DNA from: Cellvibrio sp. KY-GH-1
GTDB lineage: Bacteria > Pseudomonadota > Gammaproteobacteria > Pseudomonadales > Cellvibrionaceae
Assembly (NCBI RefSeq): GCF_008806975.1
Contig: NZ_CP031728.1
Span: 3,245,501 to 3,309,500, forward strand
Direction: 5' to 3'
DNA: 64,000 bases
Part shown: piece by piece, positions 17,282 to 39,800 of the stretch
Numbering within the stretch: position 1 is the first letter of the stretch
How the letters are laid out: each line of letters begins with the position of its first letter
Notes under the pieces: model-generated
The model's database searches: none
Told to the model about the DNA's origin: nothing
The model's input: the letters and a program-made list of their open reading frames with translations, nothing else
Translations under genes and position numbers: made by a program

Positions 17282-19789
17282 ATGAAACTTTTTACTTCTT
17301 CCCCTATGTGGGCGGGTGCCCTATTGGCGACTCTCAGTTGGCAGGCTTCTGCCGATTGCAATTCATCTGGATGGTCATCTACCACGCAATATCGCGGTGG
17401 TGAATCTATTGTATATCAGGGCAGCGAATTTAAAGCGCGCTATTGGATCAACGTAGGGCAAGCCCCGAATGCATCCAACCCATGGGATGCATGGCAACAT
17501 ATCCAAACCTGTAGCGGAACCTCTGTGTCGTCTGCAAACCCATCGTCGATACCATCAATTTCTTCCAGCAAAAGCTCTGTTATTGCTACCGGGCAGCAGT
17601 GCAATTGGTATGGCAGTGTTTACTCTATTTGTTCACAAACCAATAGTGGTTGGGGATGGGAAAACAATCAAAGCTGTATTGCTTATGCAGATTGCGCTGC
17701 ATTGGCCAGCCCTTACGGAGTGATAGGATCTGCAAGCAGTGCGTCATCAAGTGTGCTTTCCAGCAAAAGCTCATCCAGTATTTCTACTAGCGTTTCAAGC
17801 AGCTCAGTGGGGTCTTCTGTTGTTAGCAGCTCCAGTATTAGCAGCTCAAGCTCTTCAATTAAAAGTTCGGTAAGTTCTCTTTCATCCAGCTCGGTAGCAT
17901 CCGGAATTACTACCTGGAACTACGACGCATCAACCGCTGTAATTACTGCACCAGCAGAGCTAGCGGATGGTGTTGGAAACTTAATGGGCGACGGCAGTGC
18001 TGTGATTTGGAATGTGAATCTGCCAGTGACTGGCGAATATCGCATTACCATTAATTGGAGTGCGCCTTACGGTACTAAAACCAATACCTTAGTGGTGGAT
18101 GGTACAGGCATCAGCAATGTGTTTGCTGAAACCGCTACTCCCGTTGCATACACCCAAACCAAAACACTGATAGCAGGCGCGCATAGTTTTGGTATTCAAG
18201 TAGGTGGCAGCGATTGGGGCTACATGAACGTTCACAGCTTGAAAGTGGAATTGCTAGGCGGCCTTACTGTTACATCGCCTGCCAATTTTGCGCAATTGCC
18301 ATCGGGCAGTAATATTCAAGTGGTGTACACCAAGTTGGGTAGCGGCAATCTTACTTACAGCGTGAACGACGGCACAACGGTTGTGTACACAGGCGCAAGC
18401 CCGCTGACCATTCCAACAAAGGGTGATGGTGTGTATCGCATCAAGCTAGGAATGGAAGGTACAACGCTGAGCAGCAATTTGCGTGTGACTGTAGGTACTA
18501 CCAATTTGCCAGCATTTGTTGAAGCTTCAGGTACTCAGTTTGTATTAGGCAATAAACCATTTTATTTCAATGGTTCAAACCAGTATTACCTGATGTATAA
18601 GCCTGAGTCTATGGCAAATGATTTCTTTGCTCGTGCCAAAGCTTTGGATATGAAAGTAGTGCGTACCTGGATGTTCTGTAATGGTTCATCAACGCACGAC
18701 GGCGTTTGTATCAATAAAAAATCCGGCACTAGTTTTATTTTGGTAAAACCGGAGTCTGAACGCACTGCAGAAGAAAAGGCGCTGATCGCACGCAGCTTCG
18801 AATTGTTCGACAACTATGTTGCACAAGCTGAAGCCAATGATATGCGTTTGGTATTGTCGCTGTCTGACTACTGGGATTACTTCGGCAAGATTGAAGATTA
18901 CGGCCCCTACGGTAGCGCGGCAGGTCGCACACTCTTTAAAACCTTCATCACCAATTTGCTGAATCACGTAAATCCATTAACGGGTAAAGCCTACAAAAAT
19001 GATCCAACGATCATGATGTGGGAATTGGCGAACGAACCGCGTTATACCAATAGCAATTTTGCTGATTTTAAAGTCTGGGTTTCCGATATCGCAGCACACA
19101 TCAAATCGATTGCACCTAATCAATTAGTATCGATTGGTTCTGAATCCTCATTCGGTATTGCTCTGGATGATAGCTACGCATCGCTGGTGGAATTAAATCG
19201 TGACCCAAATATTGACGCAATCAGTGGGCACCTTTATCCAACTGCATGGTCAATGACCGACGAACAAGTACTTGGCAATATTCAAAAGCTCGCCGACCTT
19301 GCGCGTGAAGTTGGTAAGCCTGCGTACATTGGTGAATTGGGTTGGCCGGTTGATAAAAAACGCACCACGGGCTCACAAGTGGAAAATATTCCATCAGGCC
19401 AAGCGGCGATAGACGCTTTCCTTGCGGTGTCTTTGGCACAGCGTGCAAGTTACATGGAAAGCTGGTACGCCAAAGCTTATGCAAATCAAGATGCAATCGG
19501 CGGTTTCCTAATCTGGCAATTGTCTGGCAAAGAATGGGGTAACGGTGGTGTGCCACTGCAGGGCTGTCAATGGTGTGCAGGTCCTTATGGCGAGCCAACC
19601 AATGGCTGGTCGGGTAATCACGACGGCTATCAGTTCTATTGCGCGATTACTCAGGCAGAAATGTCATTGACAGCATTGGGCGCAGTAGGTAGCAATAAAG
19701 AAGGCGACAAAATCCATATGGATTTACACAAGCCAAGTTGTGACGTTATTAAAAACTACTCAGGTAAATATCAATTGCTGACGCAGTAA
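17282..19789 (+). CDS. Secreted multimodular GH5 endo-beta-1,4-mannanase
   Basis: The 835-residue enzyme should cut beta-1,4-mannan outside the cell. In order it has a signal peptide (to about A24), a CBM5-like module (25-77, SSTTQYRGGE and KARYWINVGQ), a CBM10-like module (107-138, CNWYG with paired cysteines), a poly-serine linker (150-207), a CBM35-like beta-sandwich (about 209-327), an Ig-like spacer (328-405) and a GH5 catalytic domain (411-835). The catalytic pair is E585 in ELANEPR (acid/base) and E685 in YIGELGW (nucleophile). The CBM5/CBM10 pair suggests anchoring to crystalline polysaccharide. The last 630 residues are closely paralogous to the C-terminal third of the protein encoded at 36844-42201. 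CAGG lies just upstream of the ATG. Confidence 0.9.
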   Translation: MKLFTSSPMWAGALLATLSWQASADCNSSGWSSTTQYRGGESIVYQGSEFKARYWINVGQAPNASNPWDAWQHIQTCSGTSVSSANPSSIPSISSSKSSVIATGQQCNWYGSVYSICSQTNSGWGWENNQSCIAYADCAALASPYGVIGSASSASSSVLSSKSSSSISTSVSSSSVGSSVVSSSSISSSSSSIKSSVSSLSSSSVASGITTWNYDASTAVITAPAELADGVGNLMGDGSAVIWNVNLPVTGEYRITINWSAPYGTKTNTLVVDGTGISNVFAETATPVAYTQTKTLIAGAHSFGIQVGGSDWGYMNVHSLKVELLGGLTVTSPANFAQLPSGSNIQVVYTKLGSGNLTYSVNDGTTVVYTGASPLTIPTKGDGVYRIKLGMEGTTLSSNLRVTVGTTNLPAFVEASGTQFVLGNKPFYFNGSNQYYLMYKPESMANDFFARAKALDMKVVRTWMFCNGSSTHDGVCINKKSGTSFILVKPESERTAEEKALIARSFELFDNYVAQAEANDMRLVLSLSDYWDYFGKIEDYGPYGSAAGRTLFKTFITNLLNHVNPLTGKAYKNDPTIMMWELANEPRYTNSNFADFKVWVSDIAAHIKSIAPNQLVSIGSESSFGIALDDSYASLVELNRDPNIDAISGHLYPTAWSMTDEQVLGNIQKLADLAREVGKPAYIGELGWPVDKKRTTGSQVENIPSGQAAIDAFLAVSLAQRASYMESWYAKAYANQDAIGGFLIWQLSGKEWGNGGVPLQGCQWCAGPYGEPTNGWSGNHDGYQFYCAITQAEMSLTALGAVGSNKEGDKIHMDLHKPSCDVIKNYSGKYQLLTQ

Positions 19790-19888: not shown

Positions 19889-20675
19889 ATTTTCTGGACT
19901 GACGAGTCTGGCAACACGTAAACGTTTATTTCCCGAGACCCCCAGTGACTTGATGCTTATGGCAGTCAATACCTTACGATAGTTGCATATTTTCCCGACC
20001 ACGCTCTGCCTAAAAAATATTTAACACAACCTGTCCAAGGACGTCGATCAAACCAGGACGTAACAATTAAAGGAGTTCAGAGTTCAGCTTCTCAGGAAGA
20101 AATTCCAAGATGGATGCGGGATAGATAAGGCACGATGCCGATGTAACTAGGAAGATCACATGCCCGAGCAGGAGGCAAAGGGGCTATTAAGATGCAGCGC
20201 CCCTCTTCAAATTCTCCGTTTTTGATTTACGTTTCAACACTGAGCTCAACGGATTTTCCGCAAATTTCTCCCTTCATAATCTCGGTGTTCACTAAGTCTT
20301 AATTATAGCTTTCTATTTAATTTTTCAAGCCAAGGACCAACTCAACTAATGTGCACATATCTAAAGATTTCCAGCTGCTTCAGCCTTTGCAATTAACTAC
20401 TGGGTTAGTACTAAAAAATAGAATTGTGATGCCACCGCAACTTCGCTCCAAATCCGACGACAGTTTTGCGCTGACTAGAGACATGGCTGATTACTACAGA
20501 CCCTGTTGATCTTTGATTTTTTATTCCGATTATGATAACGTTAACTATCGTGGTAGAAAATAACAATAAAAGTGCTTCAAGCAAAACAGTTTCTCAGCAA
20601 TTCACCAGATATGGCTATCCGCTTCACTCAGGATAAAAGCAATAAATACTCTTAATAATTAATGAGGAAAGACGT
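19889..20675. other. Intergenic region upstream of GH26-like gene A
   Basis: Nearly 790 bases contain no reading frame I would support. Around 20175-20215 there is a GC-rich hairpin (AGGGGC and GCCCCT arms). The last 120 bases are the promoter and leader duplicated at 25289-25411. A remnant of a lost gene or mobile element is possible, but I see no diagnostic ends. Confidence 0.45.
20533..20546. promoter_or_regulatory. Class 2 LacI-type operator candidate before GH26-like gene A
   Basis: TGATAACGTTAACT contains the palindrome core TAACGTTA about 130 bases before the start codon. The same core occurs at exactly the same distance before GH26-like gene B (25269). It differs from the TGTAAyCGrTTACA sites, so a second regulator may act here. 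Confidence 0.5.
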
Positions 20676-21986
20676 ATGTCTTATATAAAATCAACCAGAT
20701 GGCAGCTTGGTCGGTGGGCGGCGCTCGCCGCTTTATCAACCGGAATAACACTGGCTGCACCAACAACCTATGCCGTCACCGGTAAATTTGTTCCCCAAAG
20801 CGGCATTCTCATGACTGTCGGGCAGGATGTGGACAGTATTAACAATTATAAAAACGCCATTGGCCATGTGCCGGCGGGTGTCACCAATTATGTGGGTATC
20901 GCCAATCTGGATGGATTAAATAACAACGCCGATGCCGGTGCTGGCCGCAACAATATTAATGAGCTGGCAAATACTTATCCGAACAGCGCATTAGTGGTTG
21001 GGGTGTCGATGAATGGCCAAGTCGATGCTGTTGCCTCAGGCAGCTACAACGCGAATATCGATACGCTCTTACATAAACTCGCCAGTTATAACCGCCCAAT
21101 ATTTTTACGCTGGGCTTACGAAGTAGATGGCCCTTGGAATGGTCACAGCCCCAGTGGCGTGATTCAATCGTTCCGTTATGTTGCCGATCGCGTTAAGCAG
21201 CTGGGTTATTCCAACCGCATTGCGATGGTGTGGCAAACCATGTCCTACTGCCCTATCGATTCCAATATCGAGCAATGGTATCCGGGTGACCAATATGTTG
21301 ACTGGATCGGCCTGTCCTACTTCGCACCACAAGATTGTAATTTCCGCGAAGTAAATAAAACCGCAAACTTTGCGGTTGCGCACAATAAACCGCTGATGAT
21401 TAATGAATCCACTCCGCAGCGTTTTGCGATTGGCGAATTAAGTTATTCCGCTGATGCAGCACGCGGCACCGGTCGGATAAATAAAACAGCCAACCAAATC
21501 TGGAACGAGTGGTTTGTGGGTTATTTTGAATTTATGGATAGCTATTCATCGCACTTAAAAGCGGTGACTTACATTGACGCCAACTGGAATGCGCAATCGC
21601 GCTGGGCATCGGGCAATGAAGGTTATTGGGGCGATAGCCGTGTAGAAGCTAATGCAACAATCAAAACCAATTGGCTGAATGAACTGAACAATAATGCGCT
21701 GACGGGTGAAACATTTATCTATAAAACTTCGAGCGATTTGTTTAGCAAATTGGGTTTTGGTAGCACGCCATCTTCAGCCGCAGCCAGCTCCGCGCCTGCA
21801 AGCTCTACTGCAACAACCTCGGTAGCCGCAAGTTCAACTGGCAGCACTGGCACTAGCGGTGTGTTTGGCATGACCAGCAGCGGTACTGTGTATCATTTAG
21901 ATGGCGGCCAAACTGCGGGCTTTGTGTACCTGTGTGTGAATGGCGATTGCCGTACAGCGACTAAAGTGGGTAATCGTTACGAGCGC
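20553..21986 (+). repeat. Duplication copy A: promoter, leader and GH26-like domain
   Basis: This stretch matches 25289-26722 at a constant offset of 4736 bases without indels. It covers the leader, signal peptide, catalytic domain, first serine linker and the start of the first four-cysteine module. The substitutions I spotted are scattered and mostly silent. After residue 438 the two proteins diverge abruptly. Confidence 0.9.
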
Positions 21987-23063
21987 AGCTATGCACCAGT
22001 AAATGTCAGCATGAGTTATGCGATTGAATTCAAAGTGCAGGACAATACCATGGGTCAATGCTTGACATCAGCCAATGTCAAACCCGGTCAGGCCGTTTCA
22101 ACACCTTGCTATTTAGGCTCAGTGGCGACCACCAGCAGCACTGCACCCAGCTCAACCGCCATGAGCTCCACTGCCACCAGCTCCATGCCCGCCAGTAAAG
22201 CGGCCAGTTCAAAAGCGAGCAGTGCAACAACCAGTACCGCACTCACTTGTCAAAGCGATACAAATCCATCCCATGTAGTTTCTGGTCGCCGTGGAGAATT
22301 CACTCAAAGTTGGTGCGATACAGTCTGTGTGACCATGATTGGAAATGATACGGGCTGCTTAAATAAAGACGGTATTTTTGTCAGCAACGCTAGCATTTGT
22401 AGTGACCCAGCAAACGCCAAAGAAGCCATGCTGGATATTGAATACAACTTGGGGATCGATATTGACGATGCATTTGTTGCTGCTTCAGGCTACCAAGGTG
22501 CCGTTCCTTCACTCAATCCACGGATGAAAACCGAAGATGTACGTAAATATTTTGTCGCACTACTTGGGCAAGACAGAGGCTCTTCATTAACAGATGCCTT
22601 GAATACCAATGGTGATGCCTGGATTGATCGCAATGAGGCCAGTCAAGCAAAAGGCTCTGACCCACGTCAATTACTCACCACCGGTTTTGGTTGTGGCTTA
22701 TCAACCGATGACATAATGGCATACCTCGGTTTGTACATGGGCGATGGTGCCATTGATAAATACGCGGGCGATTTGGACGCTTCAGTAAAAGCATCCATGC
22801 TTACATTTACTCGCAGCTGGCAGCCAGGCGTTAGCGCACAAGCCTGTGAATATCGCGGCGGTTGCGGCAATACTCAAAGCAGCGCCAAAAGCTCAGCGGC
22901 TTCATCTAGCAACCTAAACTCATCCAAAGCAGCAATCAGCTCTGCAGCAGCGAGCAGTGCGGCGCCCAGCAATAACTGCCCAGTTAGCCACCCGTTCTGG
23001 GCAGCCTCTTGCCAACGCTGTTTTGTCGATGCCAGCCAAGCTGCATCGGCGTCTTGTCATTAA
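20676..23063 (+). CDS. Secreted GH26-like glycoside hydrolase A with EF-hand-like C-terminal region
   Basis: The 795-residue protein has a signal peptide (cleavage near YA, residue 33) and a clan A barrel (about 37-360). The motif RWAYEVDGPW resembles the acid/base motif of GH26 (RPxHExxGxW), giving E149, and MINEST gives E244 as nucleophile. Linkers rich in Ser/Ala flank a four-cysteine module (395-482). A unique region (524-732) follows, containing a calcium-loop-like stretch, N643-E654 with ligands at N643, N645, D647, D651 and E654. The chain ends in a cysteine-rich tail (767-795). GAGGAAAG precedes the ATG. Endo-mannanase or another endo-hexosanase activity is inferred. Gene B has the same catalytic half but a heme-binding tail. 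Confidence 0.75.
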   Translation: MSYIKSTRWQLGRWAALAALSTGITLAAPTTYAVTGKFVPQSGILMTVGQDVDSINNYKNAIGHVPAGVTNYVGIANLDGLNNNADAGAGRNNINELANTYPNSALVVGVSMNGQVDAVASGSYNANIDTLLHKLASYNRPIFLRWAYEVDGPWNGHSPSGVIQSFRYVADRVKQLGYSNRIAMVWQTMSYCPIDSNIEQWYPGDQYVDWIGLSYFAPQDCNFREVNKTANFAVAHNKPLMINESTPQRFAIGELSYSADAARGTGRINKTANQIWNEWFVGYFEFMDSYSSHLKAVTYIDANWNAQSRWASGNEGYWGDSRVEANATIKTNWLNELNNNALTGETFIYKTSSDLFSKLGFGSTPSSAAASSAPASSTATTSVAASSTGSTGTSGVFGMTSSGTVYHLDGGQTAGFVYLCVNGDCRTATKVGNRYERSYAPVNVSMSYAIEFKVQDNTMGQCLTSANVKPGQAVSTPCYLGSVATTSSTAPSSTAMSSTATSSMPASKAASSKASSATTSTALTCQSDTNPSHVVSGRRGEFTQSWCDTVCVTMIGNDTGCLNKDGIFVSNASICSDPANAKEAMLDIEYNLGIDIDDAFVAASGYQGAVPSLNPRMKTEDVRKYFVALLGQDRGSSLTDALNTNGDAWIDRNEASQAKGSDPRQLLTTGFGCGLSTDDIMAYLGLYMGDGAIDKYAGDLDASVKASMLTFTRSWQPGVSAQACEYRGGCGNTQSSAKSSAASSSNLNSSKAAISSAAASSAAPSNNCPVSHPFWAASCQRCFVDASQAASASCH

Positions 23064-23731: not shown

Positions 23732-25150
23732 TTATTGAAAATATTTAACAACCGGCTTTACGATAGGATCAAATACCCGCTCATAAATATCTTCGGCATC
23801 AAGCGGATAATAAATCCAATTCACCTGATAGCGTGCAGCCCCGCGCAGATAAAACAAATGTAGCATTTTAAAATCAATTAATTGTGCAATAGTCGCCACG
23901 GTATCAGGGCAATCAATTACTCCCATCTCTGCCGGAACAACGGCTAACAAATCGGCAAGCTGTGCATCCTCTTGACGTAAATCATTTAATACTTGCAGCA
24001 TAACCATATCCAACAAATCCCCCTCCCCCATGCTCCAATCAGGCTGTGGCGCCTCTAAATGAGCCAATGTTGCCAGTGAAAAAGCTTCATCGGGGTCAAC
24101 CCCCAAATCACGGAGTAACTGTTCAATATTGGCGGTGGGAAAACGAGGTGATTGAATTAACTGCTTATAGAGCTGTTGCGCTGATTCACCCTGAGCAGCC
24201 GCTAAACGTTTGGCGAAATAAGCCAACAAAAGTTCCGCGCGCTGGGATTTATACTGTTGCGGATGGATATTCTGCAAACGAACAAAAGCGCCGCGAGCAG
24301 TGGCTGTGCCCATAGCGATATTGGACATAATTAATTCCGCTCCAAACGCATGCTTGGCAATTTTACGTTTAGCGCCGCGCGTCAATGTCTGCGGTGACCA
24401 CTGCAAAAAAGAAAAACGCGGTGAGTTATATTCACCGTGCATCAGTGCATTCATTTTCTTTGCGTGCTTTCCGTCCAGTGCTTCACCCTGTGGCCCCGGA
24501 GCAATATTATCGCCAAATACCCCAGGCCAATCCAAATTAGTGCCCCACACCGGGCGCGCATTCTCAGTGCCGTGACATTGCGCACAACTTGGATCATTGC
24601 GAATCAAGCGCGGTTTATCCCCATCAAAATCAAACACTGAAAATTCCCACCGTCCAGTATTCTCATCCAATTGCGCAACATCTAATAGATTGTATTTAGG
24701 ATCATCCAGTTTGGTGCCGATGTTTAGTAAAAATCGGCCATCAGAACCAAACAACACAATGCGGGGGTATTCCAAATTCGATTGTCCTGTTGCACGGGTA
24801 TGCTCAACTAATGAAAAGTTATTTTGATAGTGCGCTGGAAAGTAATTCACTAACTCATCAATCGAGCGAATGTCTTTTTTCTGAATAAATGCATAAATGC
24901 CTTCCACCGTCATGTCCGGCTGATCAACCAAAGGTGATGGATTTAAAGCACTAATTGGCACAACAGTATCCAGGGCAGATGCAGGGCAAATACCCGCCCG
25001 CGTTGCGCTGCCACCGGTATGAATTAATTGCGCCTGAATTTGCTGTTGATGGGATGGCAATACATTCACTGTTTTATCGCAAGCGCCTAACATTGCCATC
25101 ACAATCACAGCAGCCAAGGGCTTCAAACGCAACTGAATTGTGTTTTGCAT
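23732..25150 (-). CDS. Predicted lipoprotein with a single c-type heme motif
   Basis: From ATG 25150 the 472-residue product has a lipoprotein signal ending in MAMLGAC, with the lipidated cysteine at 24. The next residue is D, the classical inner-membrane retention signal in enterics. A CAQCH motif at 189-193 would attach one heme c covalently, and it is followed by a loop with WPG and a histidine-rich segment. The remaining helical C-terminal half has no family I can name. In-frame starts further upstream would spoil the signal. It sits between the two GH26-like genes on the opposite strand, next to the gene encoding a di-heme GH26-like fusion. An electron-transfer role in the same process is a reasonable inference. 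Confidence 0.65.
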   Translation of the reverse strand: MQNTIQLRLKPLAAVIVMAMLGACDKTVNVLPSHQQQIQAQLIHTGGSATRAGICPASALDTVVPISALNPSPLVDQPDMTVEGIYAFIQKKDIRSIDELVNYFPAHYQNNFSLVEHTRATGQSNLEYPRIVLFGSDGRFLLNIGTKLDDPKYNLLDVAQLDENTGRWEFSVFDFDGDKPRLIRNDPSCAQCHGTENARPVWGTNLDWPGVFGDNIAPGPQGEALDGKHAKKMNALMHGEYNSPRFSFLQWSPQTLTRGAKRKIAKHAFGAELIMSNIAMGTATARGAFVRLQNIHPQQYKSQRAELLLAYFAKRLAAAQGESAQQLYKQLIQSPRFPTANIEQLLRDLGVDPDEAFSLATLAHLEAPQPDWSMGEGDLLDMVMLQVLNDLRQEDAQLADLLAVVPAEMGVIDCPDTVATIAQLIDFKMLHLFYLRGAARYQVNWIYYPLDAEDIYERVFDPIVKPVVKYFQ

Positions 25151-25268
25151 AGAATTTATAGTTAAGTTAGTAAAGTTCATGTTTGCTATAAGCATTCTAC
25201 TTATACATTTTTATTCTTATTTTTCTCTAAAAAACCGACAGATGGCAATTGAATATAGGGATCATTAC

Positions 25269-25288: not shown

Positions 25289-26722
25289 GTAGAAAATAAC
25301 AATAAAAGTGCTTCAAGCAAAACAGTTTCTCAGCAATTCACCAGATATGGCTATCCGCTTCATTCAGGATAAAAGCAATAAATACTCTCAATAATTAATG
25401 AGGAAAGACGTATGCCTTATATAAAATCAACCAAGTGGCAGCTTGGTCGGTGGGCGGCGCTCGCCGCTTTATCAACCGGAATAACACTGGCTGCACCAAC
25501 AACCTATGCCGTCACCGGTAAATTTGTTCCCCAAAGCGGCATTCTCATGACTGTCGGGCAGGATGTGGACAGTATTAACAATTACAAAAACGCCATTGGC
25601 CATGTGCCGGCGGGTGTCACCAATTATGTGGGTATCGCCAATCTGGATGGATTAAATAACAACGCCGATGCCGGTGCTGGCCGCAACAATATTAATGAGC
25701 TGGCAAATACTTATCCGAACAGCGCATTAGTGGTTGGGGTGTCAATGAATGGCCAAGTCGATGCTGTTGCCTCAGGCAGCTACAACGCGAATATCGATAC
25801 GCTCTTGCATAAACTCGCCAGTTATAACCGCCCAATATTTTTACGCTGGGCTTACGAAGTAGATGGCCCTTGGAATGGTCACAGCCCCAGTGGCGTGATT
25901 CAATCGTTCCGTTATGTTGCCGATCGCGTTAAGCAGCTGGGTTATTCCAACCGCATTGCGATGGTGTGGCAAACCATGTCCTACTGCCCTATCGATTCCA
26001 ATATCGAGCAGTGGTATCCGGGTGATCAATATGTTGACTGGATCGGCCTGTCCTACTTCGCACCACAAGATTGCAATTTCCGCGAAGTAAATAAAACCGC
26101 AAACTTTGCGGTTGCGCACAATAAACCGCTGATGATTAATGAATCCACTCCGCAACGTTTTGCGATTGGCGAATTAAGTTATTCCGCTGATGCAGCACGC
26201 GGCACCGGTCGGATAAATAAAACAGCCAACCAAATCTGGAATGAGTGGTTTGTGGGTTATTTTGAATTTATGGATAGCTATTCATCGCACTTAAAAGCGG
26301 TGACTTACATTGACGCCAACTGGAATGCGCAATCGCGCTGGGCATCGGGCAATGAAGGTTATTGGGGCGATAGCCGTGTAGAGGCTAATGCAACAATCAA
26401 AACCAATTGGCTGAATGAACTGAACAATAATGCGCTGACGGGTGAAACATTTATCTATAAAACTTCGAGCGATTTGTTTAGCAAATTGGGTTTTGGTAGC
26501 ACGCCATCTTCAGCCGCAGCCAGCTCCGCGCCTGCAAGCTCTACTGCAACAACCTCGGTAGCCGCAAGTTCAACTGGCAGCACTGGCACTAGCGGTGTGT
26601 TTGGCATGACCAGCAGCGGCACGGTGTACCATTTAGATGGTGGCCAAACCGCAGGGTTTGTGTACTTGTGTGTGAATGGCGATTGCCGTACAGCGACTAA
26701 AGTGGGTAATCGTTACGAGCGC
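25289..26722 (+). repeat. Duplication copy B: promoter, leader and GH26-like domain
   Basis: This is the partner of 20553-21986. The encoded residues 9-438 appear identical between the copies even though several third-codon positions differ, for example GAC/GAT and CAG/CAA changes. Confidence 0.9.
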
Positions 26723-29700
26723 TCTTTCGCTCCGGTGACGACAGCCACAACCTATTCAATCGAATTTAAAATCCAGGACAATGCTATTGGCCAATGCCTG
26801 ACATCTGCATCGATTAAACCCGGCAATGCGGTCGCAAGCACACCTTGTTATTCCGGCTCAGTCCCCGTAAGTTCAGCCGCAACCTCTTCAGCACCGGCTT
26901 CAATACCAGCCTCATCTATTCCCGCCAGCTCAGCACCTGCAGCGACTAGCTCCAGCAGTGCTAATACAGACGGTGCAGGTGTATTCGGTTTGACCACCAG
27001 CGGACTGCTGTACCATTTGGACGGCGGTCAAACCGGTGGTTTTGTGTATTTGTGTTTGAATGACAATTGCCAAACGGCCACTAAAACCAATGGCCGCTAT
27101 GAGCGCAATTTTGGTTCGGTCGGCGCTGCGACCAACTATAAGGTCGAGTTTAAAATTCAGGACAATGCCACTGGCCAATGCATCACCTCTGGCAACCTCA
27201 TACCCGGCAGTGCATTAAGCGAAACCGCCTGTTTCAATGGTAGCGTCAGTGTCAGCTCGGCGAGCGTTTCCTCACTTGCCCCTGGCTCCAGCAGTAAGTC
27301 ATCAACCCCATTGAATTCGAGCAGTAAATCATCAACACCGCTTAACTCGAGCAGCAAGTCATCAACACCCTTGAGTTCTAGCAGCCAATCTTCAACCGTA
27401 GCATTGCCAAGTTCCAGCAGCCAATCCTCATCCAGCTCAGCACCCGCCGCGAGCGGTGATTTCGGCTTGGTTTATGTGAGCAATACCAGCGGTATTATTC
27501 GCCATCGCGATAAACCCTTCACCGCTGCGTTTGCCAATCTGTGCTTTAACGGTGCCTGCTCTACAGCAACGCTGCGCAATGGCTACTGGGAACGCAATAT
27601 CGATGGCTTGACCTTGGGCGCGGTTTACAATATCGGCACCCAAATTCAGGACAATGCTATCGGCCAGTGCGCCATTAATACCAATGTTACCTTCCAAAAA
27701 GAGGGCACTTTTGTTACCAGCGCATGCTTACCACCGGATCTTGATGCACCAACCTTACCGGGAAATTTACAAGGTGTGCAGAAAAATGGCCGCGCCGTTG
27801 CGTTGACTTGGACTGCCTCTACTGATAACCGCGGTGTTGCCCGCTATGAATTGTTCCGCAACAACATACTGGTTGCATCGCCCACCGGCACCAGCTACAA
27901 CGATTCTGGTTTGACCGAAAACAGCAGTTACCAATATGCGATCCGTGCCTGTGATGCAGCCAATAACTGCTCAGCAAAAAGTGCGGCAATCATTGTTGCA
28001 ACGGGCAATTTTACGCCCGATACCACAGCCCCTACCGTTCCAGGTAATTTCACCGGTAAAGGCAATTCGATTAATGCAGTCTTGTTGAGCTGGAATGCAT
28101 CAACCGATGCAGCAGGTTTGGTTGCACTCTATAACGTATTTAAAGACAACGTAAAAATTGGCAGTCCGACCACAACATCATTCACCGCTAGCGGTATGAA
28201 AGCCGGTGAGCGTCACAGCTACGCCGTACAAGCCTGTGATGATTCCGGCAATTGCTCGGCCAAAACAACCGCTATCAGCGTGGCTACTAACCCACCAGAT
28301 TTTAGCAATCTGGATTTCACCACCAATTCCCATGAAGGTTATGTACACTTTGGTGGCAATGAAGTTGGCCCAGCACCGCGCGCCAATCGCCCAGATGCCT
28401 TAGCAACCCCCATCAATGGCGCCACCGCTAATCCACGTGGCTTTGCATTTGATATCACCGGCAACCAATTAACTTGGCGCTGGGGTGCAAACAATGTTCC
28501 ACAAGGTACTGCGGGCGATGTTGGTTTCACCCGTACCGCAGGCGATTCCGGCCTTGAAATGCATTGCTCTGAAGATGGCAACAAGACCTTTAAAATGGCC
28601 AAGTTGGTTAATTCAACCCTGACCATTCCATGTTCGTCAGCTAATTACACTTACTTCTTCCGCTACAAACACCCGCTGGCAATGAGCAGTTTGGCCGGTA
28701 CCGATTGGATTCACACGGCACTCTTCACTATCGCCACACGGGTTAACGTCAATGCCTACACCCCCTTCACCGATGGCTCTTCCAACTGGATGCGCTGGCG
28801 CCACCCGATTGCGCATGACGGTTGTACCGCAGCGGTATCGGATGCATGTCATAACAACAGCTTGTTGCGCGATTTGGATCGCTACACCATTTGGGTCGAT
28901 GACTCGCCCAACAATGTACAAGTTCGCCACTCGGCAAGCGGCGGTATTTTGCGGATTGAAGCAGCGCGTCATCACGCCGGCAACTCCAATGGCCAACAAC
29001 AATTCACCTACAACATGGGTACTGGGTTTGGCAGTGAGTTCAGTTATGGTCAAGTCATTCAATTTGAGATCACCGCTGTAGCCGGCTCGCAGGTTTACAA
29101 CGACTTCTCCTACTACACCGTCGGTTTAGGTTGGGGTAACTACGGTGACCCGCGTTTGAACCCAGCGGGCCGTGCCAGTACCACCATGATTATCGCCGGT
29201 GCACCGGGTGCGGACATCTTCAATGAACAAGAAGCTATCTTTACCCAACCACTGGTCACAGTTCACTCGGAAGGTTTGATGAATGACTTCATTGTCGGTC
29301 ACCACCTATTCCATGGTATTGACCCCAAGGTTCGTCATGGTGCACACGACCAAGTAAAAATTGGTGAGCGCAGCTGTGGCGGATGTCACTTCCGCGATGG
29401 TCGCGGCTCAGAGGTGATTGACACACCACGCGGCAAACGCCTACCACCACCGGTATACGGCGTAAAATTGCTGGAGTGGATGGTCGGCCGTGAAGCGGGT
29501 TTCCGTTGGGATGGCCAAGTAGCAAGCGTTGAAGATCAAATCCATAACGCGCTACTGGAAGATCATGGTGTTAGAGCAGAAGATCTACCTCCCCGCGTGC
29601 TGGAAACTCTTGTTAACTACACCGAAGTGCTGACCGTGCCTGCACGTCGCCCAGCGGTATACGACAATCCTTCAGTTGCGCGTGGCGATGTAGCATTCAA

Positions 29701-30043
29701 TGAAATTGGTTGCGCCGGTTGCCACAAACCAGAAGCCAGAACCCGCGCGGATGCGCCTTCGCACCTGCGCAACATTAGTATCCGACCTTACACAGATATG
29801 AAAACCTGGGATTTAGGCGGCGATCAAGCTTACCGCACCCCTGCACTATGGGGCTTAAGCCACAACTTGACGCTACTGGAATCGCGTGGACGCGCAGTAC
29901 TCTTCATGCACGATGGCTCTGCCACCAGCGTTGAAGCAGCCATTGCTGCCCACGGCGGAGCAGGCCAAACATCGCGCAGCGCCTATAACGCATTGAGCGC
30001 TGCAGATAAAAAAGCTGTCGTGGACTTTATTAAATCACTCTAA
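25412..30043 (+). CDS. Secreted GH26-like glycoside hydrolase fused to a di-heme cytochrome (DHOR-type) domain
   Basis: This 1543-residue protein starts like gene A: signal peptide, GH26-like barrel with E149 and E244, and a serine linker. It then has three four-cysteine modules (395-483, 522-612, 682-772), a linker with a 10-residue repeat, two Fn3 domains (about 778-866 and 871-959), an unassigned domain of about 300 residues (963-1270) and a C-terminal di-heme domain (about 1270-1543). The heme motifs are CGGCH (1322-1326, followed by FRDGRG) and CAGCH (1434-1438). YRTPALWGL, FMHDGSA and AAHGG match the end of di-heme thiol-oxidoreductase-like (DHOR/MauG-like) proteins. A hydrolase and a cytochrome on one secreted chain suggests coupled redox and hydrolytic attack, or tethering of an electron carrier to polysaccharide. 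Confidence 0.85.
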   Translation: MPYIKSTKWQLGRWAALAALSTGITLAAPTTYAVTGKFVPQSGILMTVGQDVDSINNYKNAIGHVPAGVTNYVGIANLDGLNNNADAGAGRNNINELANTYPNSALVVGVSMNGQVDAVASGSYNANIDTLLHKLASYNRPIFLRWAYEVDGPWNGHSPSGVIQSFRYVADRVKQLGYSNRIAMVWQTMSYCPIDSNIEQWYPGDQYVDWIGLSYFAPQDCNFREVNKTANFAVAHNKPLMINESTPQRFAIGELSYSADAARGTGRINKTANQIWNEWFVGYFEFMDSYSSHLKAVTYIDANWNAQSRWASGNEGYWGDSRVEANATIKTNWLNELNNNALTGETFIYKTSSDLFSKLGFGSTPSSAAASSAPASSTATTSVAASSTGSTGTSGVFGMTSSGTVYHLDGGQTAGFVYLCVNGDCRTATKVGNRYERSFAPVTTATTYSIEFKIQDNAIGQCLTSASIKPGNAVASTPCYSGSVPVSSAATSSAPASIPASSIPASSAPAATSSSSANTDGAGVFGLTTSGLLYHLDGGQTGGFVYLCLNDNCQTATKTNGRYERNFGSVGAATNYKVEFKIQDNATGQCITSGNLIPGSALSETACFNGSVSVSSASVSSLAPGSSSKSSTPLNSSSKSSTPLNSSSKSSTPLSSSSQSSTVALPSSSSQSSSSSAPAASGDFGLVYVSNTSGIIRHRDKPFTAAFANLCFNGACSTATLRNGYWERNIDGLTLGAVYNIGTQIQDNAIGQCAINTNVTFQKEGTFVTSACLPPDLDAPTLPGNLQGVQKNGRAVALTWTASTDNRGVARYELFRNNILVASPTGTSYNDSGLTENSSYQYAIRACDAANNCSAKSAAIIVATGNFTPDTTAPTVPGNFTGKGNSINAVLLSWNASTDAAGLVALYNVFKDNVKIGSPTTTSFTASGMKAGERHSYAVQACDDSGNCSAKTTAISVATNPPDFSNLDFTTNSHEGYVHFGGNEVGPAPRANRPDALATPINGATANPRGFAFDITGNQLTWRWGANNVPQGTAGDVGFTRTAGDSGLEMHCSEDGNKTFKMAKLVNSTLTIPCSSANYTYFFRYKHPLAMSSLAGTDWIHTALFTIATRVNVNAYTPFTDGSSNWMRWRHPIAHDGCTAAVSDACHNNSLLRDLDRYTIWVDDSPNNVQVRHSASGGILRIEAARHHAGNSNGQQQFTYNMGTGFGSEFSYGQVIQFEITAVAGSQVYNDFSYYTVGLGWGNYGDPRLNPAGRASTTMIIAGAPGADIFNEQEAIFTQPLVTVHSEGLMNDFIVGHHLFHGIDPKVRHGAHDQVKIGERSCGGCHFRDGRGSEVIDTPRGKRLPPPVYGVKLLEWMVGREAGFRWDGQVASVEDQIHNALLEDHGVRAEDLPPRVLETLVNYTEVLTVPARRPAVYDNPSVARGDVAFNEIGCAGCHKPEARTRADAPSHLRNISIRPYTDMKTWDLGGDQAYRTPALWGLSHNLTLLESRGRAVLFMHDGSATSVEAAIAAHGGAGQTSRSAYNALSAADKKAVVDFIKSL
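27287..27376 (+). repeat. Three 30-bp tandem repeats coding a Ser/Thr linker
   Basis: Three units encode SSSKSSTPLN with few base changes, inside the linker before the third four-cysteine module. Such repeats can change copy number by slippage and so vary linker length. Confidence 0.85.
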
Positions 30044-30360: not shown

Positions 30361-31410
30361 ATGAGTGGAAGACGCTCCCCCGAGAAAAATAAACAATCCA
30401 CTATGCGCGATGTAGCGGAAATGGCCAACGTTTCGCTGATGACCGTATCGCGCGTACTCAATGAAGATGGCAAAGTCGCCGATGAAACACGCGAACGCGT
30501 CATGGCCGCAGTAGAAAAACTGAATTACAAACTCAACATTTCAGCGCGCAGCTTATCCAGCGCAAAATCTTACGAGATAGGTTTTTTTTACGATCAAAGT
30601 AAAGGCGCCTTTATTAAAGAATATTTGATCGGTACCATGCTGCGCTGCAACCAATTGGGCTACCACCTCATTCTGGAACCCTGCGACTTTTCCGATATGG
30701 ATATCAACTCTCATATTAAAAAAATGGTTCGTCGCCATGCACTGGACGGCATCATAGTACCGCCCCCCCTTAGTGATAACGCCAAACTACTAGATGCATT
30801 GGATGCCGAAGGACTGCGTTATGTGCGCGTCGGCCCAGGCGCACAACTCAAACGCGCCTTTTGTGTCCACATCAATGACTATGCTGCCGCAGTACAAATG
30901 ACCGAACACCTGATCAATAAAGGCCATAAAAATATTGGTTTTATTAAAGGTGATCTCTCTCAGGAAACTAGTCACCGTCGTTTCGCGGGTTATATGGATA
31001 CCATGCAAAAACACAATTTGCGCGTGGCATCCAGCTGGATCGGTGAAGGTAACTTTGAATTTGAAGGTGGCATGCTTGCCGCTGAAAAAATTTTGAAAAA
31101 AACCAAAGTCAGTGCGATTTTTGCCTCCAATGATGACATGGCTGCAGGCGTAATTGCCGCTGCGCGCAAAATGCATATAGACGTACCTGAACAATTAAGT
31201 GTTGCGGGATTCGATGACACCACACTCGCTGAATCCATGTGGCCAAAACTCACCACAATCCATCAGCCCATTTATGAAATGTCGCAATCGGCAGTAGATT
31301 TATTAGTAGAATCCATTCGCTCAAATTTCGATAAAAAAATCACATCTAAAGTACAGATAGAACTTGATCATTATTTAAAAGATCGAGAGTCTATTAACGA
31401 AATTCATTAG
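30361..31410 (+). CDS. LacI-family transcriptional regulator
   Basis: The 349-residue protein has an N-terminal helix-turn-helix (about residues 15-40, MRDVAEMANVSLMTVSRVLN) and the hinge-helix pattern ARSLSS. The rest is a periplasmic-binding-like effector domain with the family signatures NDDMAAGVIAAAR and VAGFDDTTLAESMWPKLTT. Such proteins bind CG-centred palindromes and release DNA on binding a sugar or sugar phosphate. The 14-bp palindromes distributed before TBDR, mannanase and GH26-like genes in this locus are the likely targets. It stands alone after a strong terminator and faces the second halogenase-like gene. The effector is unknown; mannose, mannobiose or a phosphorylated derivative would fit. 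Confidence 0.93.
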   Translation: MSGRRSPEKNKQSTMRDVAEMANVSLMTVSRVLNEDGKVADETRERVMAAVEKLNYKLNISARSLSSAKSYEIGFFYDQSKGAFIKEYLIGTMLRCNQLGYHLILEPCDFSDMDINSHIKKMVRRHALDGIIVPPPLSDNAKLLDALDAEGLRYVRVGPGAQLKRAFCVHINDYAAAVQMTEHLINKGHKNIGFIKGDLSQETSHRRFAGYMDTMQKHNLRVASSWIGEGNFEFEGGMLAAEKILKKTKVSAIFASNDDMAAGVIAAARKMHIDVPEQLSVAGFDDTTLAESMWPKLTTIHQPIYEMSQSAVDLLVESIRSNFDKKITSKVQIELDHYLKDRESINEIH

Positions 31411-31518: not shown

Positions 31519-33042
31519 TTATTCAACCACTTGCGAAGATTTTATAAAAATATTGCGCTGCATAAAATGCAGGTGATCCGGTAGATCTTTAACGGTATTG
31601 GCAATGCTTGCAGCGATTGCTTTTAATTCCTGTTCGACGAGTTGCACATCAAAATCATCTACCACCGGATGGTAATGCTGCGGCTGAATATTGAACCCGG
31701 AAAACATCGCCAGCCAACTGTTGGTGTCAAAAAAATCGAGTTCATCTACCTGGGGTTGACCGGTGGCTTTAAAGTACTCAATGCGCGCGCTGAGTGTATC
31801 GGGAATTGCCATGTTGCGGCATTCATCCCAGAAGGCTTGGCCATGGCGCTGGTTGGCGTAATAATGCAGGATTAAAAAATCGCGCAATTTCTCCTGCCGT
31901 ATACGCAAGTTGTTGTTCACCGTGTTGACCAGGGTTTGATTGAATTGATTATTAGGGAAATGATTAAGCAGCAGGGTAAGACTTGATTGGATTAAATAGA
32001 TGCTGGTGGATTCGAGTGGTTCCATAAAACCACTGGCCAGCCCCAAACAAAACACATTTTTATTCCACGCCTGTTTGCGCATGCCGGTGGTAAAACGAAT
32101 AAATTTGGGTTCGGCAAGTGCATCACCTTGCAGATTTTCCTGTAATTTTTCAGCGGCAATTTCATCGGAAATATAATCACTGCAATAGACATAACCGTTG
32201 CCAACACGGTGTTGCAGAGGAATTCGCCACTGCCAACCAGCTTCCATTGCGAGGGCGCGGGTGGCGGATTGGGGTGCAAGTGTGCTCGCACAGGGCATTG
32301 CTACTGCGCGATCGCAGCGTAGCCATTGACTCCAGCTTTCGTAACCCGTTTTTAGTCTCTGCTCAATTAACAAACCGTTAAATCCCGAGCAATCGATAAA
32401 AAACTCACCTTGGATTTTTTCGCCATTACTCAGTGTCAGCGATTGAATAAAGCCTGTATCTGGATCTTGCGCAACCTGCTCGACATTGGCTTCAATACGA
32501 TTAACGCCCATGCCTTGCGCGAGTGATGATAAATACTGGGCAAATAAACCCGCATCAAAATGAAATGCATAATTAAAACTGGATAATTCAATATCATTAT
32601 TGGCTTTGGGCAGTGCAAATTTGTTGTGTCGCGCCATTTGTACGGCGAGACAGTAAGTGTCCAGCGTTTGCGCTTTGTTTTGCGCGCGCAATTTTGCCCA
32701 GTAGTGATGAAAGGGAATGCGAGCGATACGCGCGCCGTATCCGGCAAAAGGGTGGATAAATTTTTCGCTGGGTTTATACCAGCCATCAAAATCGATGCCG
32801 AGTTTATAAGTCGCTTGGGTGGCGCGCATAAAATCGACTTCATTAATGTTCAGGTCTTGCAGAAATTCTTTGATATAGGGAACTGTGGCCTCGCCTACAC
32901 CGATAGTGCCGATCTCGGCCGATTCAATTAAGGTAATCCTGGTGATGCCTTGCTTAAAACGATTGGCTAAAGCGGCCGCGGCCATCCAACCGGCAGTGCC
33001 GCCACCGAGAATAACAATGGAGCGAATGCGTGAATCGGTCAT
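31519..33042 (-). CDS. Flavin-dependent tryptophan-halogenase-like protein 2
   Basis: ATG 33042 is chosen because AGG lies eight bases upstream and the protein then starts right before the FAD-binding strand (SIVILGGGTAGWM); the longer frame from 33123 adds unrelated residues. The 507-residue product keeps the halogenase marks: GGGTAGW (13-19), the lysine of ATYKLGIDFDGW (K80), WQWRIP, and GFMEPLEST. It is closely similar along its whole length to the protein at 7049-8578. It lies 186 bases downstream of TBDR 3, the same order as the first pair. A cytoplasmic FADH2-dependent enzyme is expected; its substrate is unknown. Confidence 0.88.
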   Translation of the reverse strand: MTDSRIRSIVILGGGTAGWMAAAALANRFKQGITRITLIESAEIGTIGVGEATVPYIKEFLQDLNINEVDFMRATQATYKLGIDFDGWYKPSEKFIHPFAGYGARIARIPFHHYWAKLRAQNKAQTLDTYCLAVQMARHNKFALPKANNDIELSSFNYAFHFDAGLFAQYLSSLAQGMGVNRIEANVEQVAQDPDTGFIQSLTLSNGEKIQGEFFIDCSGFNGLLIEQRLKTGYESWSQWLRCDRAVAMPCASTLAPQSATRALAMEAGWQWRIPLQHRVGNGYVYCSDYISDEIAAEKLQENLQGDALAEPKFIRFTTGMRKQAWNKNVFCLGLASGFMEPLESTSIYLIQSSLTLLLNHFPNNQFNQTLVNTVNNNLRIRQEKLRDFLILHYYANQRHGQAFWDECRNMAIPDTLSARIEYFKATGQPQVDELDFFDTNSWLAMFSGFNIQPQHYHPVVDDFDVQLVEQELKAIAASIANTVKDLPDHLHFMQRNIFIKSSQVVE

Positions 33043-33067
33043 AGCAGTACCTGAAAAATTAAAAAGC

Positions 33068-33204
33068 TGGATACCCGCAAGCGGGTATGACGACGAGGTG
33101 TTTGTTAAACAGGGAGTCGTCACCCTGCGTGCGGGTATCCATGAGGCGATGACATGGCAGTAGAGTCAATCGTGGCTCGTCATCCCCGCGTGCGGGGATC
33201 CATG
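33068..33204. repeat. Cluster of three REP-like palindromic elements
   Basis: Three short hairpin units occur at 33068-33093, 33116-33143 and 33177-33204. Each has a variant of GTCATCCCCGCGTGCGGGGA plus ATCCATG. The first is inverted relative to the other two, giving a BIME-like arrangement between TBDR 3 and the halogenase-like gene. Such elements can act as mRNA-stabilising stems or mark transposase-assisted spread. Confidence 0.75.
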
Positions 33205-36843: not shown

Positions 36844-39800
36844 CTATTGATTTAAGCCCTGATACAGTTCCGAATACTGCTTGATGATGTCGCAGCTGGG
36901 TTTATGCCAAGTCATGTGGATGACTTTGCCTTCAACATTGTTGCCCGGTGCGCCCAGCTTGCTAAGGCTGAGCTCAGCTTCATTAATTGCGCAGTAGAAC
37001 TGGAAGCCGTCATTATTAGCTGTCCAGCCACCGCTGGCTTCACCATAGGGGCCAGAACACCACTGACAACCGCCCAGGGGCGTCATGCCATTACCCCACT
37101 CTAATCCGGACAGCTGCCAGGTAAGCATGCCGCCAATAGCATCGCGCTGGGCCCAAGCTTTGGCGTACCAGCTGGCAAAGTATTGGTCGCGCTGCTGCAG
37201 CGACACCTTCACAAAACTATCCACCAGTGCTTGATCAGTAAAGCTGGTGAGTTTTACCGTTTGCGCGCCAGTGGTGCGCTGCTCGTTAACCGGCCAACTG
37301 AACTCACCGATATAAGCTGGCTTGCCCAAATCGCGCGCCAAGTCCGCCAGCAGGTCAAAGTTGCCGAGGGTTTGGGCATCGGTTAAACCCCACCAAGTGG
37401 GATAAAGGTGAGCACTAATAGCGTCGATATTTGGGTCGCTATTGACGGCGCGCAGGTTGGCGTAAGTATCGCCCGCCCCTGCAGCACCAAAGGACGACTC
37501 CATACCGATAGAGACCAACTGCTGTGGCGCAATGGATTTTATGTGCGCGGCAATGCTGCTCACCCAAGCGCTAAAACCGGGCAAGTCGCTGCCAATACGC
37601 GGCTCATTGGCCAACTCCCACATCATGATGGTTGGATCATTTTTGTAGGCCACACCGGTGATGCTGTTGGTGTGATTGAGCAGATTGGTGATAAAGGCCT
37701 TGTAGATCTCGCGCCCGGGCGCACTGGCATAACCACCGTAGCTGTCGATATTGCCGAAGTAGTTCCAGTGATCGCCAAGCGACAACACCAAGCGAATACC
37801 GCGCTCCTCGGCCAGAGCCACATAATTATCAAACAGTTGGAAACTGCGGTCGATAATCGCTTGCTCCTGCGCCGTGCGCTGCGCCGCTGGCTTGCTCAAA
37901 ATGAACGAGCCATTGGATTTCATATTGATGCAGACGCCGTCGTGGGTTTTGGTGTCGTTGCAGAACATCCAGGTGCGCACTACATTCATTTTTAAATGGG
38001 CGGCGCGCTCAAAGAAGTCCTTAGCCATAGCCTCGGGCTTGTACATCAAGTAATACTGATTAGAGCCGTTGAAGTAGAAGGGTTTATTGCCCAACACAAA
38101 CTGCGTGCCCGAGCGCTCTACAAACTGCTTATTGGCCGATGCCCCCACTTGCAAGCGCAGGCTTTGGCTTAGGCCAGTGCCCTCAACTCCGAACTGCAGG
38201 CGATAAATGCCATCGCCCTGATTGGGGATAACCAAGGGGCTAGCACCGCTATAACTCACCGGCGCTGCACCATTGAGGCTGTAGCTCAGTTTGCCCGCAC
38301 CTTGTTTAAGGTAACTGATTTGAATATTGCTACCCGAAGCCAGCTGCGCAAAGTTCGCCGGGCTTTGAATTTGCAAGCCGCCCAACAACTCCACCTTAAG
38401 GCTATGCACAGTCATGTAGCCCCAATCACCGGCGTTCACTTGAATACCGGCGCTGTGGCTGCCCTGACTTAGCATCAGAGTACGCACACTGGTCGCTGGG
38501 GTTGCTGAATTAAAGTTAGTGGCAACACCGGCACCGTCCACCATGAGCGTATTGACCTTACTGCCGCTGGGCGTGCTCCAGGTCAGGGTCAAGCGATACT
38601 CCCCCGCCATAGGTGCATTAAATGTCCAGATGGCACCACTGCCCGCAGCTTTTAATTCCACCGCATCGCCAGATAACACTGCCGCGCCCTGCAAGCTGGC
38701 GCTATTGGCGGCGTAATTCCAAGTCATCTCCGCAGGTGCCACACTGGTGGCGACCGAGCTAGTAGTTTGCACACTGCTAGAACTGACAAGGGACGACGCA
38801 GGCTGGCTCGACGCTGCCACAGAGCTGGGCACAGATGAACTTGACGCTTGTGATGTGGCCGCTGCCGAGCTAGTCGAGCCGCCAAAATAACTCGTCGCTA
38901 AAGGTACTACCGTCGCTTTAATACCGGTTGCGGAATCGACTATATCCACCCCGTGTTGCGTCAGTGAATAACTGTCGTAGGCGTTGGACATATCGAGCAT
39001 GGTTTCACCCGCGCCATTGCCGCGCCAAGACCAGGCGATCCATCCCATAGATACGCTTTGCGCTTTTTGCATCAAGTAGAAATGATCAGTGGTTTTGCCA
39101 CCCGCAGTGTGATTGCTACGCCCAAACTCGCCCACTACCACCGGCAACTGGGTATTGATTAGATACTGCATGCGCGTATCTATCTCTGCCGTGTTTGACC
39201 ACTCGTAATAGCCATGAACCGAGAAGATGGTGTTGCGCAGTGGGTCTGCCGCCAGCACGCTGGCACCACCATCAAAGAAGTAAGGGTTGTGCCCCCAATC
39301 GCCCGCGTCTATAACCAAGGGCGCAGTGATGCCATTGTCGCGCAGGGTTTTTACCGCTTTGGCGTAGGTGTCGCGCCATACTGTTTTATCCTGACCCCAT
39401 TCATTGGCGATATTAATTAGCAAGTATGGTTGGTATTTAGGGTCTTTAATCACCGCACCCCAGGTTTCCGTCCACTTACTGACGGCGTCATCGCCACCGA
39501 CCACACCGTTATCAATCGCATTGGCATCGCTGCCACCAGTGATTTGATAGGTGCCGCGGCTGCCGTTCTCCCAATACATCGGCATAGCCAGCATGCGGTT
39601 GCGCACAATCTCATCGAGCGCGCTGCGCAACTGGGCGGCAGTGGTATCGGCGCGCAGTTGCAAGCGCACCACATTGGCACCGGTTTTAGCGATTTGTGCG
39701 ATGGAAGCAAACTTAACCGCCGGGTCGTCACCGTATTGCAGGTTCACCCCACGCATGACCAGCGGCGTACCATCGGCTAGGTAGATAGAGCGGCCACTCA

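Follow-up and report, generated by a model that had tools for sequence, protein, structure and literature searches.

An X-DHOR two-haem unit in a secreted GH26-CBM31 protein of Cellvibrio sp. KY-GH-1 and its association with genes for β-1,3-xylan breakdown

Results

Gene layout and predicted substrate

The window analysed here is a 64,000-nucleotide (nt) stretch of the Cellvibrio sp. KY-GH-1 genome (contig NZ_CP031728.1, positions 3,245,501 to 3,309,500). It contains a gene for a predicted secreted protein in which a glycoside hydrolase (GH) domain of family GH26, three carbohydrate-binding modules (CBM) of family CBM31, two Fn3 domains, a region here called X and a two-haem domain related to the DHOR family share a single chain. 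The gene is one uninterrupted frame of 1543 amino acids (aa) with an ATG start. Its features are the following.

25412..30043, forward strand: whole gene, 1543 aa; signal peptide, GH26, three CBM31, two Fn3, X, two-haem domain
25412..25510, forward: predicted signal peptide, residues about 1–33, judged by eye from the sequence
25517..26497, forward: GH26 β-1,3-xylanase domain (predicted), residues 36–362, from the Xyl4 (2ddx) match and the AlXyn26A alignment
25856-25858 and 26141-26143, forward: candidate catalytic Glu pair for the acid/base and nucleophile roles, E149 and E244, from alignment
26621..26812, forward: CBM31 copy 1 (Pfam)
27008..27190, forward: CBM31 copy 2 (Pfam)
27446..27700, forward: CBM31 copy 3 (Pfam)
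27734..28015, forward: Fn3 domain 1, residues 775–868
28016..28294, forward: Fn3 domain 2, residues 869–961
28394..28741, forward: X part 1, residues about 995–1110, modelled as an Fn3-like β sandwich
28742..29164, forward: X part 2, residues about 1111–1251, a β domain with no confident match
29165..30040, forward: compact DHOR-like two-haem domain, residues 1252–1543 (Pfam DHOR; fold match)
29375..29389, forward: haem 1 site, CGGCH motif, residues 1322–1326
29711..29725, forward: haem 2 site, CAGCH motif, residues 1434–1438

In the Pfam search of the 1543-aa protein, GH26, three AlcCBM31 stretches, two fn3 domains (residues 775–961) and DHOR are recovered, and Cytochrom_C is barely over its cut-off. 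A preliminary description, made from the sequence without database searches, had proposed a secreted hydrolase and a two-haem unit on one chain. The open frame, the Pfam domains and the CxxCH motifs agree with it, as do both candidate catalytic Glu residues, the two Fn3 domains and a cytochrome-family match within residues 1270–1543. The three cysteine-paired modules that it left unnamed are present and can now be identified as CBM31, all three stretches exceeding the Pfam AlcCBM31 cut-off.

The closest solved relative of the GH26 domain is the β-1,3-xylanase Xyl4 (2ddx; residues 36–364, E 2.2e-140), followed by AlXyn26A (E 5e-26). E244 aligns with the Glu mutated to Ala in AlXyn26A E243A, a variant of solved structure. 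On these alignments the hydrolase is a predicted GH26 endo-β-1,3-xylanase, and the CBM31 modules are in keeping with this substrate, β-1,3-xylan. The preliminary description had named mannan as the substrate. With a Pfam GH26 match of only E 1e-6, the motifs made a mannanase a reasonable guess; it is rejected here on the basis of the nearest relatives and the CBM31 assignment.

The same description knew of no hydrolase fused to DHOR, and this proved mistaken. Xyn65 of Gilvimarinus xylanilyticus HB14, published in 2022, has the layout GH26-CBM31-CBM6-Big-DHOR and a mass of 176.6 kDa, and its authors state that DHOR was previously unseen in glycoside hydrolases (PMC9638140). Of the xylans tested, Xyn65 hydrolysed only 1,3-xylan (76.9 U/μmol). 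Produced in E. coli, it did so with no added redox partner and yielded mainly xylobiose and xylotriose. It is the most abundant secreted 1,3-xylanase on 1,3-xylan, with 82.3% of their peptide-spectrum matches (PMC9638140). In the same strain, locus L070 encodes a 1673-aa GH26-CBM31-X-DHOR frame of 178.8 kDa (about 176 kDa minus the signal peptide), which is very probably Xyn65, judging from strain and size rather than from an accession. A literature search for CBM31 linked to DHOR or to a cytochrome, in which subscription journals were mostly outside the search, returned nothing beyond PMC9638140. The GH26-CBM31-DHOR fusion is thus of the Xyn65 type and already known in kind. The interest for follow-up lies in the X-DHOR unit with the neighbouring gene P0128, rather than in the fusion itself.

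The X-DHOR unit

The C-terminal domain matches Pfam DHOR (PF06537) with E 6.3e-20 and 71.5 bits against a gathering cut-off of 22; the match covers model positions 338–499 of 499 only. The fold of this domain matches hydrazine synthase gamma, MauG and bacterial cytochrome c peroxidase (bCCP). Together, X and DHOR form one conserved unit of about 580 aa, newly described here and referred to as the module. In a search with X alone, limited to candidates of about 155–490 aa, no clear stand-alone X gene is found. The four matches are three proteins of 157–282 aa with no Pfam domain, which are probably pieces, and one truncated X-DHOR.

Conservation was read from an alignment of 151 module rows, which comprise the query, 106 proteins and 44 locus frames (the last two sets overlap) from 159 candidates. 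The homologue searches scored about 8000 candidates sharing most words, and rows not spanning the module, such as the partial matches P0080 and P0116–P0123, are excluded. The haem Cys and His of both CxxCH motifs are invariant (151/151). H1301, D1462, M1463 and W1480 are likewise invariant (151/151), and among the possible axial haem ligands H1297, H1301 and M1463 are invariant or nearly so.

In bCCP, MauG and BthA, a distal-pocket Gln, Pro and Glu are conserved, and their variation harms the peroxide-binding step (PMC6405878). When X-DHOR is aligned to the Nitrosomonas europaea peroxidase 1iqc, a WDG...Q stretch pairs with WDG...Q at equal spacing; this alignment is weak by score, and the pocket comparison rests on that motif. 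Placed in this way, the pocket Trp is kept in 148/151 rows and the Gln in 140/151. The Pro is replaced by Ala in 149/151, and the Glu position is Gly in 92 and Lys in 36. A His (H1385) adjoins the Glu position in 149/151 rows; at the H1385 position, the ordinary DHOR proteins encoded in this genome have Met (two of three) or Ile (one). On this motif alignment, two of the three peroxide-pocket residues of bCCP and MauG are replaced, so chemistry is not transferable from those enzymes. X-DHOR appears to be a separate branch for which peroxidase chemistry cannot be assumed.

Distribution of the module

The module is found in Pseudomonadota, Bacteroidota, Acidobacteriota and Planctomycetota. As judged with small purpose-built hidden Markov models, CBM31 is on the same chain in 106 of the 151 module rows and GH26 in 12; the remaining 139 have no GH26.

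A locus scan with one genome per species gave at least 80 matches at no fewer than 74 loci. After five loci were dropped as contig-edge or partial matches (L077, L080–L083), there are 47 module loci and 22 control loci; in the latter, the match is confined to the DHOR portion at the C-terminus. Several scanned loci share one genome. The locus counts given here and below are among the matches listed. The module gene carries CBM31 at 38/47 module loci and a fused GH26 at 5/47 (Gilvimarinus chinensis, G. xylanilyticus, Marinibactrum halimedae, a Gynuella metagenome-assembled genome and Neiella marina). Another 15/47 have GH26 as a gene of its own within the 10-kb flanks, which brings the loci with fused or nearby GH26 to 20/47. 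Neither CBM31 nor GH26 is present at any of the control loci (0/22), some of which have shorter flanks and one of which, L085, may itself be a true module cut short at a contig edge.

Among 244 genomes of the order, CBM31 (E 1e-3) and the module (E 1e-30) occur in the same three genomes, a co-occurrence valued at 4e-7 with kinship ignored. In this search, the candidates of genomes G000 and G105 were scored in part, and G105 contains at least five module genes. At E 1e-30, the module is found in the own genome only among 369 genomes of the class. In a set of 37 near relatives, three contain the whole module, the own genome among them.

The module also occurs in more than one copy. In the Cellvibrio genome, locus L025 (11260-15030, reverse strand) encodes a 1256-aa paralogue with two CBM31, two Lipoprotein_15 (PF03640) repeats and X-DHOR, whose module is 46% identical over the matched part. 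A second X-DHOR gene adjoins the first at L043, L045, L048, L049, L058 and L069–L071. PF03640 repeats often share a chain with CBM31 and DHOR in X-DHOR homologues (for example P0032, P0034 and L025) and could represent a third component, with a redox or metal role.

Domain shuffling and the tandem GH26 copy

A second GH26-CBM31 gene precedes the fusion gene.

20676..23063, forward: tandem GH26-CBM31 gene; GH26 domain with the same protein sequence as in the fusion (100% identity)
20553..21986, forward: repeat block of about 1.43 kb, shared with 25289-26722

The two copies of the block differ at 20 positions in the first 1311 coding nt (98.5% identical) and at two in the 123 nt before the start. 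Nine of these differences are inside the GH26 domain, and all nine are silent. Identity falls sharply inside the first CBM31. The simplest account would be recent recombination or gene conversion between the tandem genes, meeting at the CBM31 repeats; a recent duplication may also explain the block.

P0032 and P0034 are 80–81% identical to this protein in GH26 and 54% in the module, while P0005 is 80% identical in the module and 48% in GH26. The histories of the two halves therefore disagree. P0003, with a module 91% identical, has a similar signal peptide (LGRWAALAALST in common) that is followed directly by CBM31, with no GH26. On a quick tree of 137 modules, in which the unfused rows L032 and P0062 may be truncated, the GH26 label requires nine gains or losses. 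The shuffled mean is 11.7, and two of 500 shuffles are as low. Given a GH26 near-copy in the neighbouring gene and a close relative without GH26, the fusion of GH26 to X-DHOR is a shuffled one. On that basis, it reflects a common substrate more than a fixed machine.

P0128, a candidate partner

23732..25195, reverse strand: P0128, 487 aa, divergent neighbour of the fusion gene, with a lipobox-like LGAC and one CAQCH

P0128 is a probable lipoprotein, going by its lipobox-like motif. Pfam assigns it to no family (E 0.001), and no NCBIfam model comes close to its cut-off. Twelve of 18 module genomes, representing more than one phylum, encode a homologue, with best E values of 4e-159 to 1e-75. At five module loci (Gilvimarinus xylanilyticus, G. 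chinensis, Aquimarina litoralis and two Flammeovirga), a homologue flanks the module gene. In G105, one adjoins a GH26-CBM31 gene.

In the background of 244 order genomes, P0128 is matched in seven (E 1e-3), of which two are module genomes and five are others at 31–34% identity. There is no match at E 1e-30 in the other 368 genomes of the class. These order and class backgrounds are unmatched for hosts outside Gammaproteobacteria. P0128 and the module thus co-occur, which is not proof of contact, and P0128 is a candidate redox partner. Beside the GH26-CBM31 and P0128-like genes of G105 is also a gene (locus L117, 8534-11137, forward) for an 868-aa protein with CSGCH and CFGCH motifs; it has no match to X-DHOR at E 1e-5.

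Neighbouring genes in the window

30361..31410, forward: LacI-family regulator, downstream of the fusion gene
17282-19789, forward: GH5 mannanase-like protein with CBM35 and CBM10
36844-42201, reverse: 1785-aa protein with three GH5-like stretches, CBM35, CBM10 and CBM5/12 on one chain
7049-8578, forward, and 31519-33123, reverse: tryptophan-halogenase-like flavoproteins

LacI-family homologues (E 1e-10) are found at 9/47 module loci; the family is common. The mannanases of this locus are the two GH5 proteins. By matches in the PDB, two of the GH5-like stretches of the 1785-aa protein are mannanase-like and one is mannosidase-like. Mannan genes therefore adjoin β-1,3-xylan genes in the window. 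The flavoproteins lie beside TonB-dependent receptors in this polysaccharide locus.

Discussion

Proposed role

Our preferred reading, tentative and a little short of an even chance, is that a fibre-tethered X-DHOR redox unit assists β-1,3-xylan breakdown and acts with P0128. The GH26 head (E149, E244) would cut β-1,3-xylan by hydrolysis with no redox help, and the three CBM31 modules would hold the chain on the polymer. X and the compact two-haem domain of the bCCP/MauG/DHOR fold would be a distinct head, usually brought to the polymer by CBM31 alone. GH26 would occasionally be joined to it by recombination, probably via the CBM31 repeats. Most likely, X-DHOR would move electrons at the fibre surface and so loosen or oxidise the insoluble polymer, swapping electrons with the cell-bound mono-haem protein of the P0128 family. 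The preliminary description had suggested that electron delivery and chain cleavage may share one site on the polymer. Redox at the cleavage site is unnecessary for hydrolysis, as seen in the activity of Xyn65 produced in E. coli with no added redox partner, and 139/151 module rows have no GH26 on the chain.

Several observations weigh against the preferred reading. Seven of the 47 module loci have neither CBM31 in the module gene nor GH26 in the flanks; at one of these seven, L048, two neighbouring genes carry CBM31. P0128 has no match in six of the 18 module genomes and lies in the flanks of just 5/47 loci. G030, which lacks the module and gives the best of the five matches in other genomes of the order, matches P0128 at E 7e-79, as strongly as the weakest of the 12. 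The 18 module genomes were hand-picked, not drawn, and are mostly drafts of unstated completeness. The replaced pocket residues make the chemistry unreadable by likeness to bCCP or MauG, and X-DHOR has no known electron donor, acceptor or oxidised product. For Xyn65, hydrolysis alone was measured, without a redox partner (PMC9638140).

A bolder form is possible, though doubtful. X-DHOR would be the core of an oxidative system free of lytic polysaccharide monooxygenases (LPMOs), tethered by CBM31, altered in its pocket and wired through P0128. It would attack the polymer or its wall partner directly, in four phyla, with a hydrolase fused when convenient.

Alternative explanations

The two-haem domain may instead be a peroxidase that shields the fibre-bound enzyme and the cell from the H2O2 of an algal oxidative burst, which is rather unlikely. 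The bCCP/MauG fold and the Trp and Gln at bCCP spacing (148/151 and 140/151 rows) are consistent with this role, but on the motif-based alignment, weak by score, the Pro is Ala in 149/151 rows and the Glu is mostly Gly or Lys, both positions being conserved in bCCP, MauG and BthA (PMC6405878). A protective peroxidase also leaves the tie to CBM31 unexplained.

It is unlikely that X-DHOR and P0128 serve extracellular respiration, carrying electrons outward or inward with the hydrolase as a passenger. Two putative cytochromes adjoin, P0128 is lipoprotein-like, and large secreted cytochromes have been suggested to act in this way (PMC10916295). The association with CBM31 and β-1,3-xylanase genes points to the polymer instead.

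It is quite unlikely that X-DHOR donates electrons to an LPMO, a role proposed for Cbp2D of Cellvibrio japonicus and cited as a precedent in the preliminary description. CBM-linked cytochromes are secreted, X183 from Cbp2D is able to serve LPMOs in vitro (PMC8981238), the Cellvibrio genome has four AA10 genes, and AA10 is present in 8/18 module genomes. Against this, TtX183 domains failed to support an LPMO in the conditions used (PMC10916295), the window contains no AA10 gene, and the four AA10 genes are about 893 kb or more from the fusion gene. An LPMO partner is thus unsupported here, and such a role is not general because 10/18 module genomes have no AA10 match (PF03067).

The second hypothesis of the Xyn65 authors, in which DHOR would no longer have a redox function and would instead serve in binding or stabilisation, is very unlikely to apply. 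The altered pocket and the activity of Xyn65 from E. coli (PMC9638140) fit it; both CxxCH motifs, H1301, D1462, M1463 and W1480, invariant in 151/151 rows, would be needless for a mere scaffold.

Finally, an assembly join of two genes at a repeat, for which the near-identical 1.43-kb block in both tandem genes could be cited, is highly improbable: the two GH26 copies differ at 20 positions within the first 1311 coding nt, other species also have GH26-X-DHOR chains, the genome is a single contig of 5,762,391 bases, and a Cellvibrio sp. OA-2007 contig (98.8% match to the window over 5483 bases; partial protein record 100% identical in the module) begins at coding nt 1219, as expected from a collapsed repeat.

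Comparison with known systems

The two-haem fold is shared with bCCP, MauG and hydrazine synthase gamma at about 15–21% identity in structural alignments; by motif alignment, the peroxide-pocket Pro and Glu of bCCP and MauG are absent from X-DHOR. Three other DHOR proteins of this genome (L028, L029 and L030) resemble the X-DHOR chains in combining a carbohydrate-binding domain, of the F5/F8 type (CBM32-like) or CBM56, with a C-terminal DHOR. They differ in matching the DHOR model from position 211–215 on, with an insert after haem 1, and in having DMGV or DIGV where X-DHOR has DHGV. X is not detected in them by hhalign. Coupling of DHOR to a CBM may be a general arrangement that serves several polymers.

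Xyl4, TxyA and other GH26-CBM31 β-1,3-xylanases (table in PMC9638140) have the catalytic domain and CBM31 in common with the fusion and, unlike it, no haem unit. Xyn65 is closer. Both it and this protein are secreted chains with a β-1,3-xylanase GH26, CBM31, X (for Xyn65, via L070) and DHOR, and the L070 frame is 61% identical to this protein in GH26 and 55% in the module. This protein has three CBM31 and two Fn3 where Xyn65 has CBM31, CBM6 and Big, and X is not mentioned in the available description of Xyn65 (PMC9638140). Its authors' first guess for DHOR was oxidoreductase activity on 1,3-xylan (PMC9638140). 1,3-Xylan is described as a marine algal polymer, and few 1,3-xylanases have been reported (PMC9638140). 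A haem unit that tracks CBM31 across phyla, together with a candidate cytochrome partner, provides a testable case for a redox step in β-1,3-xylan breakdown, and a protein that joins the redox unit to a hydrolase with an already expressed relative is convenient for such tests.

Cbp2D and Cbp2E are, like this protein, secreted, multi-modular and equipped with a CBM, and Cbp2D also has Fn3 and c-type haem domains. Their domains are CBM2, X158, X183 and X132 (PMC8981238, PMC10916295): CBM2 and the YceI-like X158 are in both, X183 and X132 are in Cbp2D, and the target is cellulose. This protein has GH26, CBM31, X and a DHOR-like unit, set apart from X183 and X132 by description, and no CBM2 or YceI-like family is matched in its 1543 aa by Pfam up to E 0.1. 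Growth on insoluble cellulose requires Cbp2D and Cbp2E, which are proposed to cut the polymer directly (PMC12542752). The same redox question arises for cellulose, and by analogy X-DHOR could be a parallel to Cbp2D and Cbp2E for another polymer, as a lead rather than a test.

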